Source: Natrarchaeobaculum aegyptiacum (GTDB taxonomy: Archaea > Halobacteriota > Halobacteria > Halobacteriales > Natrialbaceae). Taken from it: a stretch of 64,000 bases of DNA. The notes under the pieces were generated by a model. The model was not told the origin of the DNA. It ran no database searches and saw only the letters and a program-made list of their open reading frames with translations. Shown piece by piece: positions 46,719 through 48,742 of the stretch (the first letter of the stretch is position 1; each line of letters starts with the position of its first letter). Position numbers and translations under genes: made by a program. The stretch lies in contig NZ_CP019893.1 in assembly GCF_002156705.1 (NCBI RefSeq), positions 2,108,001-2,172,000 of the forward strand. Reading direction: 5' to 3'.

Positions 46719-47615
46719 TCACTCCGGCTGGTCTTTCCACTCGCCGATTCCCGACGGATCGAGGTGGACGTGGGCGTCGCCAACGCCCTCTACGTTCCGG
46801 AGCCGACTTGCCAGTGCAGACTCGATGTCGTGGGCCCGGCGAAACGACATGTCGCCGTCGACTTCGACGTGGACTTCCACCTCGAGCACGGGGCCGTCGT
46901 AGAAGACGGTGAGGTCGTGGACGCCCTCGACGTCGGGGTGCTTGCGGAGGGCGTTCGTGATCTCGGCGCGTTTTTTCGAGGAGGGAGCCGCGCCGACCAG
47001 ATAGTCGACGTTCTCGCGCCCGATCTCGACGCCCTGGTAGACGACCAGCAGGCTGACGAGGCCACCCGCGAGCGGGTCGAGGAGTGGCTGGCCGAGCATC
47101 ACGCCGAGGATGCCGACGACCGCTGCGATCGAGGTGTAGATGTCGTTCAGACAGTCGACCGCCAGCGCGTCGAGTGCGGTCGAACCGATGTCGGCGTTGA
47201 CGTACTCGGTATAGCGGTAGACGAGGTACATATCGACGATCGCGAACGCCAGTGCGCCGAGCAGGAGTGGGCTGGCGACGGGTGGCTCGAGTTCGAGGAG
47301 CCCCTGTACCGACTCGTAGAGCAAGAGGAGGCCGAGCAGGGCGATGATCGCGCCGACGAACAGCGCGGTGAGCGGTTCGATCCGGTCGTGGCCGTGGGGG
47401 TGGGTGTCGTCCGGGGCGTCGAACGACCGGCGGCCCCAGACGAGCACGACGAGGCTGGCCGCGAGGTCGGCGACCGAGTGGGCCGCGTCGGCGAGCAGGG
47501 CGACGCTGCCGAAGGCCAGCCCGACGGCTCCCTCGACGACGATCTTGGCGGCGTTGCCGACGACGTTGACCGCCGCCGCCTTCGTAAACCCGTCCCGTCC
47601 GACGGCCTCGCTCAT
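46719..47615 (-). CDS. Cation diffusion facilitator (CDF) metal exporter
   Basis: 298 aa from ATG 47615. Six membrane helices and a C-terminal cytosolic dimer domain (about 205-298, KHPDVEGVHDLTVFYDG and DAHVHLDP). Metal-site motifs: ALLADAAHSVADLAASLVVL on helix 2, the HPHGHDRIEPLTALF loop, and LDALAVDCLNDIYTSIAAVV on helix 5. It exports Zn2+, Mn2+, Fe2+ or similar for H+. A palindrome sits directly over its promoter (47622-47640), which suggests control by a metal sensor. Confidence 0.9.
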   Translation of the reverse strand: MSEAVGRDGFTKAAAVNVVGNAAKIVVEGAVGLAFGSVALLADAAHSVADLAASLVVLVWGRRSFDAPDDTHPHGHDRIEPLTALFVGAIIALLGLLLLYESVQGLLELEPPVASPLLLGALAFAIVDMYLVYRYTEYVNADIGSTALDALAVDCLNDIYTSIAAVVGILGVMLGQPLLDPLAGGLVSLLVVYQGVEIGRENVDYLVGAAPSSKKRAEITNALRKHPDVEGVHDLTVFYDGPVLEVEVHVEVDGDMSFRRAHDIESALASRLRNVEGVGDAHVHLDPSGIGEWKDQPE

Positions 47616-47621
47616 TGCCTG

Positions 47622-47640
47622 GTTTAGAGCGAGTCTAAAC
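47622..47640 (-). promoter_or_regulatory. Palindrome at the CDF exporter promoter, candidate operator
   Basis: A perfect 7-bp inverted repeat GTTTAGA (47622-47628) and TCTAAAC (47634-47640) around a 5-base spacer, beginning 7 bases upstream of the start at 47615. The far arm overlaps the TATA position. Candidate binding site for a metal-responsive repressor. Confidence 0.5.
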
Positions 47641-47818
47641 TTGGGTCTTTTCCTTCGCGCTCGTCGACGGCCGGACTGGCTCGAGTATGTCGGCGAGTAG
47701 TCGTCTGGCCCGTCTGTGGACCGTGCCGGTGCGTTCGATGCCCGGAGCTGGGTGAGTCGAGTTGCCAGATTCCAATCCGCAACGATCATACCGTTCCCGT
47801 GAGAATTCGGCCGTAACC

Positions 47819-47881
47819 GGGCGATGGGGCCCGCCCGACCCAACCGCCGATTCCCGTCTCGAGCGGGCGGCTGACGGTCCC
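47819..47881 (+). ncRNA. Fluoride riboswitch (crcB RNA motif)
   Basis: Matches the crcB motif closely. P1 pairs GGGCG (47819-47823) with CGCCC (47832-47836). The pseudoknot pairs GGGCC (47827-47831) with GGTCC (47876-47880), one G-U. A second stem pairs CCGCC (47844-47848) with GGCGG (47866-47870), followed by the conserved CTGACGG (47871-47877). It lies 25 bases before the GTG of the first of two crcB genes. A small perfect hairpin (arms 47891-47896 and 47901-47906) abuts that start codon and may be the expression switch. Confidence 0.85.
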
Positions 47882-47906
47882 TGTCCTGCTGGCGACGGCA
47901 GTCGCC

Positions 47907-48344
47907 GTGACCACCGTGACAGACCGACACCCACTCGTCCGACTCGAGACGCTCGCCCTCGTCGGTATCGGCGGCTTCGCCGGTGCGAACCTCCGTTTTT
48001 TCGCGGTCGGTTCCCTGCCCGACGACCTCGGGATCTTGCTCGCGAACGTCGTCGGCAGTGCGATCCTCGGCTTCCTGGTCTACGAGGCCCAGTACGCAGA
48101 CGTCCTGGACCGCCGCGCCAGACTCGCGTTTACGACCGGATTCCTCTCGTCGCTGACGACCTACAGCGGCTTCGCGCTCGGAATCGCCGACGCACCGACG
48201 CTCTGGCTCGCGCTCGCCATCCTCGCCGGCAACTACGTACTCGGTTTCACGGGCGTTCTCGTCGGCCGTGCCGTCGCCTTCCGGGTGAGCGGCCTCGAGC
48301 CTACCGAACCAGCCACCGGCCCGACTCGAGGTGATGGTGGATGA
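47907..48344 (+). CDS. crcB: CrcB/Fluc fluoride channel subunit 1
   Basis: 145 aa from GTG 47907; a second GTG at 47916 would remove three residues. A four-helix protein of the Fluc family that lets toxic F- leave the cell. Motifs: GIGGFAGANLRFF, ILLANVVGSAILGFLVYEAQ with the conserved Asn, and FTTGFLSSLTTYSGFA. The fluoride riboswitch just upstream fits its job. Its stop overlaps the start of the second copy (ATGA), so the two are translated together and could form a heterodimer. Confidence 0.93.
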   Translation: MTTVTDRHPLVRLETLALVGIGGFAGANLRFFAVGSLPDDLGILLANVVGSAILGFLVYEAQYADVLDRRARLAFTTGFLSSLTTYSGFALGIADAPTLWLALAILAGNYVLGFTGVLVGRAVAFRVSGLEPTEPATGPTRGDGG

Positions 48345-48742
48345 ACGACGTCGTATTCGCGCTCGGCCTGTCTCTCCTGGCGCTCGAGCCCGAACCGGCT
48401 CACCTCGTCGGCACCGGCGGGGCGATCGGTGCGATCTGTCGTCACTGGGTGTACCTCCAGTTGTCGTCGGAGAAGTACCCGATCCCGACGTTCCTCGTCA
48501 ACGTCGTCGGGAGTTTCGGCCTCGGACTGCTCGCCTTCGGCGGGGCGAGCGAGTCGACGGTTCAGCTGCTCGGACTCGGGGCCTGCGGGGCGTTCACCAC
48601 GTTCTCGTCGTTCTCCGTAGAGACGGTCCAGATATGGGAACGGGGCGACCGTGTGCTGGCGGTCCTCGTCGCCGTCGGAAACCTCGCCGGTGCACTCGCC
48701 GGCGTCGCGCTGGCGTGGGGCCTCGTGGGCGCGCTCGCCTGA
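48341..48742 (+). CDS. crcB: CrcB/Fluc fluoride channel subunit 2
   Basis: 133 aa, starting inside the stop of the first copy. Motifs: GTGGAIGAICRHW, FLVNVVGSFGLGLLAFGG and ACGAFTTFSSFSVE, with the Asn and the FTTFSSF stretch kept. Four helices. The N-terminus is different from that of copy 1, so the genes are old duplicates. Paired genes of this kind often form dual-topology-derived heterodimers (known for the family); I infer the same here. Confidence 0.93.
   Translation: MNDVVFALGLSLLALEPEPAHLVGTGGAIGAICRHWVYLQLSSEKYPIPTFLVNVVGSFGLGLLAFGGASESTVQLLGLGACGAFTTFSSFSVETVQIWERGDRVLAVLVAVGNLAGALAGVALAWGLVGALA

Follow-up and report, generated by a model that had tools for sequence, protein, structure and literature searches.

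A probable translational fluoride riboswitch before paired crcB genes in the haloarchaeal family Natrialbaceae

The leader of the crcB1-crcB2 gene pair of Natrarchaeobaculum aegyptiacum carries an aptamer of the fluoride (crcB) riboswitch class, and it probably serves as a switch by which fluoride activates translation of a two-subunit Fluc (CrcB) channel. The pair lies in the 64,000-nt stretch of contig NZ_CP019893.1 that was analysed as a whole, from here on the window, and its initial annotation as haloarchaeal DNA is supported. The riboswitch class itself is already known, and Rfam detects its members in other haloarchaeal families and overlooks most of the Natrialbaceae subtype. What is new is this conserved haloarchaeal subtype and its expression platform. 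The features of the locus are as follows, in coordinates of the window.

47777-47805, + strand: putative promoter (BRE-like CCGCAA 47777-47782, TATA-like GATCATA 47784-47790, -10 AA 47804-47805)
47819-47836, + strand: P1 stem-loop, 47819-47823 pairing with 47832-47836 (from sequence, Rfam alignment and covariation)
47826-47831, + strand: pseudoknot 5' strand GGGGCC (nt 8-13), pairing with 47876-47881 (covariation)
47846-47871, + strand: P3, GCCG 47846-47849 with CGGC 47868-47871, plus a CCCG/CGGG upper stem
47869-47875, + strand: GGCUGAC, the P3 3' strand plus joining segment (nt 38 U, nt 40 A)
47875-47926, + strand: predicted fluoride-free hairpin, taking up the pseudoknot 3' strand and enclosing both candidate GTGs (base-pair probabilities)
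47876-47881, + strand: pseudoknot 3' strand GGUCCC (nt 42-47); the invariant U47882 (nt 48) comes next
47891-47906, + strand: local hairpin GGCGAC-GGCA-GTCGCC, abutting GTG 47907
47907-48344, + strand: crcB1, 145 aa from GTG 47907 (PF02537, 55.1 bits against a cut-off of 32.9)
48341-48742, + strand: crcB2, 133 aa from ATG 48341 (PF02537, 80.5 bits against the same cut-off)

Aptamer, promoter and channel genes

The Rfam covariance-model search identified positions 47819-47882, with the sequence GGGCGAUGGGGCCCGCCC-GACCCAACCGCCG...CGGCUGACGGUCCCU, as a fluoride riboswitch aptamer (RF01734, 29.4 bits). The match spans 47811-47890 and covers model positions 1-64, with an E-value of 2.4e-6 for the leader stretch when tested against all 4,227 Rfam families and of 5.7e-6 across the 3.93-Mb genome, where it is the sole match. 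The covariance-model check proposed in the initial annotation thus gives a match with a low E-value and a score below the gathering score of 34 bits, a curator's threshold and not a structural feature. At that threshold an Rfam scan of the whole window gives zero matches, and E-values and relatives were used instead. A mir-339 hit (E 0.21) that overlaps the leader was rejected as chance.

The elements of the motif first read at 47819-47881 are all present: P1, the base of P3 and the long-range GGGCC/GGTCC pseudoknot, which has six pairs, the five originally listed plus G47826-C47881. The loop of P1 is AUGGGGCC, and there is an additional pair C47818-G47837. The residues A6, U7, G8, U38, A40, G42 and U48 are what we take to be the ligand site of the Thermotoga petrophila structure, and the window keeps them at 47824-47826, 47872, 47874, 47876 and 47882. 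At nt 41, a pseudoknot position, it has C instead of U. The aptamer core is letter-perfect relative to the Natrialbaceae consensus.

The core is nearly invariant inside Natrialbaceae and says little about structure there. Covariation is informative between families, at which level 35 sequences were compared, with shuffles and slid alignments as controls. In these, 97.0% of cells are paired; the shuffles reach 91.4% and the slid controls 35-51%. Among the tested pairs of P1, P3 and the pseudoknot, seven show two-sided changes (one in the slid controls), and such changes occur in 39 cells, compared with 10.3 for shuffles and 2 for slid controls. All 35 sequences pair the pseudoknot throughout (100%), and two of its pairs change on both sides: nt 10-45 varies among A-U, G-C, G-U and C-G, nt 12-43 between U-A and C-G. 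Compensatory changes in orthologous leaders, the absence of which would have spoken against the annotation, are thus found across families in both the stems and the pseudoknot.

Promoter-like columns are conserved upstream of 82 aligned aptamers and fit the published haloarchaeal BRE, TATA and WW elements (PMC4983044). These upstream elements are probably the promoter, and the transcript is predicted to start near A47815, about four bases before P1. Further upstream, between the leader and a divergent cation-efflux (CDF) transporter gene on the - strand (start near 47615), lies a perfect palindrome, GTTTAGA-GCGAG-TCTAAAC, at 47622-47640, just upstream of the transporter gene. Of 122 related loci, 75, from 18 genera, have the pattern TTTAGA-n4-6-TCTAA[AC] upstream of crcB1; it looks like a putative metal-regulator operator in a conserved divergent arrangement.

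Both genes behind the leader were annotated as overlapping channel genes, and this holds: both products belong to PF02537, the reading frames overlap by 4 nt (ATGA at 48341-48344), and the stop codon of crcB2 ends at 48742. No further crcB genes were found in the genome. The crcB2 product aligns with the solved Fluc chain 5a40, and a single-sequence search with crcB1 matches no solved chain. Given the overlap and adjacency of the genes, the pair would form a dual-subunit fluoride channel. The phenylalanine-box motifs of the two proteins differ (LTTYSGF in crcB1, FTTFSSF in crcB2; 47907-48742), which suggests an unequal heterodimer.

A start-adjacent element complementary to the aptamer

CrcB1 is present in 119 of 125 Natrialbaceae genomes, and in 82 of these 119, from 24 of 29 genera, an intact or near-intact aptamer stands directly before crcB1. 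The crcB1 leaders of these genomes were compared; they share ancestry, and counts over them are not independent tests. Most aptamer-bearing leaders carry (GT)CAGCC or CAGCT just before the start codon. AGC[CT] directly 5' of the start is found in 57 of the 82, compared with 2 of 1,419 other ATGs of the same loci and none of 23 crcB2 starts, which together serve as the background. Among 37 crcB1 leaders that lack an intact aptamer, 9 also have it, and most of these nine still carry aptamer traces. Information content is 1.05-1.40 bits at positions -5 to -1 and at most 0.51 at -14 to -6. L049 and L080 retain the element at a distance of about 5 nt from the ATG, and the clades g4, g20, g27 and part of g15 are without a start-adjacent complement.

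This element (GUCAGCC) is complementary to the GGCUG(AC) of the aptamer, that is, the P3 3' strand and joining segment: over 81 leaders, columns 35-39 form standard pairs with positions -1 to -5 in 85-98% of cases. Ranked against windows from the same loci, the duplex with GGCUGACGG has a median of 0.06, and 15 of 24 genus medians are below 0.1. The other strand-platform combinations tried rank worse; for the pseudoknot strand paired with the first codons the family-wide median rank is 0.21. With so little variation in the aptamer strand, the pairs of the element show hardly any covariation. Imposing the aptamer raises the mean predicted unpaired probability of the start region from 0.47 to 0.56 (p 8e-5, for leaders that share ancestry).

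We infer a translational on-switch from the element before the start, its complementarity to the aptamer, the gain in accessibility and the absence of T runs. Without fluoride, a strand comprising the P3 base, joining segment and pseudoknot would pair with the start-codon region and close the start, in most relatives as GGCUGAC with GUCAGCC-AUG. Binding of fluoride with Mg2+ would lock the pseudoknot and P3, withdraw the covering strand and free the start, and crcB2 would then be translated, probably coupled through the ATGA overlap. In haloarchaea it makes sense to target the start codon and not a Shine-Dalgarno sequence; in Haloferax a synthetic switch hiding the two is functional (PMC8241225). 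On balance we lean towards a general form of this arrangement, in which the P3 strand pairs with a CAGCC element joined directly to the start codon and fluoride controls access to the start without a Shine-Dalgarno sequence, widespread in haloarchaea. To our knowledge, such a start-fused platform has not been described.

CAGCC could instead be a signal for translation initiation or protein binding that has nothing to do with the switch. It remains beside a decayed aptamer in L057, L061, L069, L085, L099, L101 and L112, and it is present in L133, which has no aptamer. However, it is absent before crcB2 and nearly so before other ATGs, it is missing in most leaders that never showed an aptamer, it is kept in the two leaders where it has shifted from the ATG, and it is no Shine-Dalgarno sequence. 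We therefore consider an unrelated signal unlikely.

The same riboswitch might, instead of controlling the start codon, act on transcription, by premature termination, or on mRNA stability. This would agree with the terminators by which many bacterial fluoride switches work (PMC2864571; PMC11077080), but is rather improbable here. In the 82 leaders there is no stretch of five T from the aptamer to the start and none of four T after the aptamer, the distance from aptamer to start is just 11-20 nt in most leaders, and the element adjoining the start is complementary to the aptamer. Termination is unlikely since no leader has a T-tract, and the earlier proposal of a translational rather than a transcriptional switch is supported by these sequences.

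The start region in the window

The window leader has diverged after the aptamer, with an extra 9-18 nt forming the local hairpin, and with GTCGCC-GTG in place of GTCAGCC-ATG; the 3' arm of the hairpin, GTCGCC, stands where relatives carry GTCAGCC. The 6-bp hairpin of the initial annotation does exist at 47891-47906 and abuts GTG 47907, but a part in switching is not borne out, for it is private to this genome and the leaders of relatives are without such a hairpin. The annotated start is likewise uncertain. GTG 47907 adjoins the hairpin, but relatives begin with ATG-GCA-GAC or similar, and their Met aligns with GTG 47916; from the sequence the start of crcB1 is ambiguous between GTG 47907, abutted by GTCGCC, and the homology-matched GTG 47916.

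The complement to the aptamer strand is a bulged one in the window (GGC-GAC:GTC-GCC, rank 0.19), and the predicted free fold pairs the pseudoknot strand instead: 47875-47881 form a helix with 47922-47926 that is exclusive with the aptamer pseudoknot. The closed state of the window would thus join the pseudoknot strand to the sequence around the two GTGs, which is the alternative platform that is the weaker one in the family as a whole. A complementarity of the P3 apex to crcB1 codons (CTCGAGACG) was set aside, the close relative L034 having no such match.

It could be that the riboswitch is real in the family and is broken or constitutive in this genome through its changed platform. The inserted nucleotides, GTCGCC for GTCAGCC and GTG for ATG would fit this, as would a predicted start-region accessibility of 0.49 with or without the imposed aptamer and the decay of aptamers in several relatives. 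Against it, the aptamer core matches the family consensus exactly, unlike that of decaying leaders, and the predicted free fold sequesters both the pseudoknot strand and the two GTGs. Loss of switching in the window is decidedly improbable in our view, and because its core is fully intact the leader is expected to be functional, with a less certain geometry.

Distribution among haloarchaea and comparison with known systems

The Rfam model finds the aptamer in 43 of 125 Natrialbaceae genomes at E up to 1e-3, and in only 8 of 125 above its cut-off. Named records with the same protein (CrcB1) come from Natrialba, Natronococcus, Halovivax, Natronolimnohabitans, Haloterrigena and other Natrialbaceae. 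A family-specific model was built from 23 Natrialbaceae leaders and searched against 391 genomes of the class; it matches 97 of them, from 36 of 86 genera and eight families, so that the aptamer occurs in seven families beyond Natrialbaceae. In the other families most pseudoknots have the usual GGAGUC/GACUCC form, all 21 aptamers tested exceed the Rfam cut-off (39-56 bits), and nearly all aptamer sites read stand before crcB. Chance resemblance with no riboswitch could appeal to the sub-threshold score in the window and to a plain fold of the aptamer stretch alone that is no better than shuffles (z 0.41) and is uninformative, but it is extremely improbable, being already contradicted by the family-wide conservation, the covariation, the near-exclusive link to fluoride-channel genes and the scores in sister families.

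The apical part of P3, taken as the whole stretch between conserved blocks, ranges from 16 to 190 nt in relatives. Very long insertions, of up to 190 nt, occur in L053, L054 and L062 (genus g13) and also in L039, L041 and L045; several g13 genomes have insertions made up of degenerate CGGCTGGT-type repeats. Decaying aptamers precede an intact crcB1 in L068, L069, L072, L085, L099, L101, L103, L112 and L115, mostly of genus g15, and this series offers natural broken switches for comparison.

Tandem fluoride aptamers about 415 nt apart occur in L188 (G345, 461-931) and L193 (G392). The first of each precedes a gene for a small membrane-like protein of 68-72 aa without a Pfam match, and the second precedes crcB1-crcB2. 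The small-protein gene is a candidate for a new fluoride-controlled gene; its relatives in three other genomes are without an aptamer. In G023 an intact 53.9-bit aptamer (L004 1501-1565, L218 2609-2660) is followed by a truncated crcB1 remnant, for which reason it was rejected as a sign of a new target gene, and the crcB pair elsewhere in that genome has no aptamer. Second riboswitch matches in G116 and G035, and likewise that in L217, lie inside coding sequence and are attributed to chance.

Structured leaders are considered untypical for haloarchaea (PMC4983044), and natural RNA switches are hardly documented there; a literature search for fluoride switches in named haloarchaea, with coverage that omits most subscription journals, found no paper. 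A riboswitch kept in most of Natrialbaceae is a counter-example, and one that the Rfam cut-off misses in most members of this one family. It makes RNA-switch control of translation testable in a group with working genetics in which the Shine-Dalgarno sequence is dispensable, and it would provide haloarchaea with a natural control element inducible by fluoride.

The fluoride aptamers of T. petrophila and Bacillus cereus have the same core residues and pseudoknot topology as the one described here. They belong to the fluoride riboswitch class (PMC11077080); the B. cereus switch works by an intrinsic terminator, whereas the window leader is without a T-tract. The crcB motif was reported in bacteria and archaea by Weinberg et al. 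2010 (PMC2864571), and the RNA described here shares with RF01734 a P1 with an AUG loop, the long-range pseudoknot, the AAC-P3-UGA core and the site before crcB. The Natrialbaceae subtype differs in its GGGGCC/GGUCCC pseudoknot, C at nt 41 and an often very long P3, and most of its members fall below the Rfam cut-off. The fluoride switch of Thermococcus kodakarensis, according to PMC8241225 the sole experimentally determined riboswitch in archaea, is likewise archaeal, near a channel gene and presumed translational (PMC8241225, PMC4247193), but the RNA there precedes TK0513 and not crcB itself. Both window proteins share PF02537 with the solved Fluc channels (5a40, 5a43), and differ from the solved chains in being two unlike subunits.
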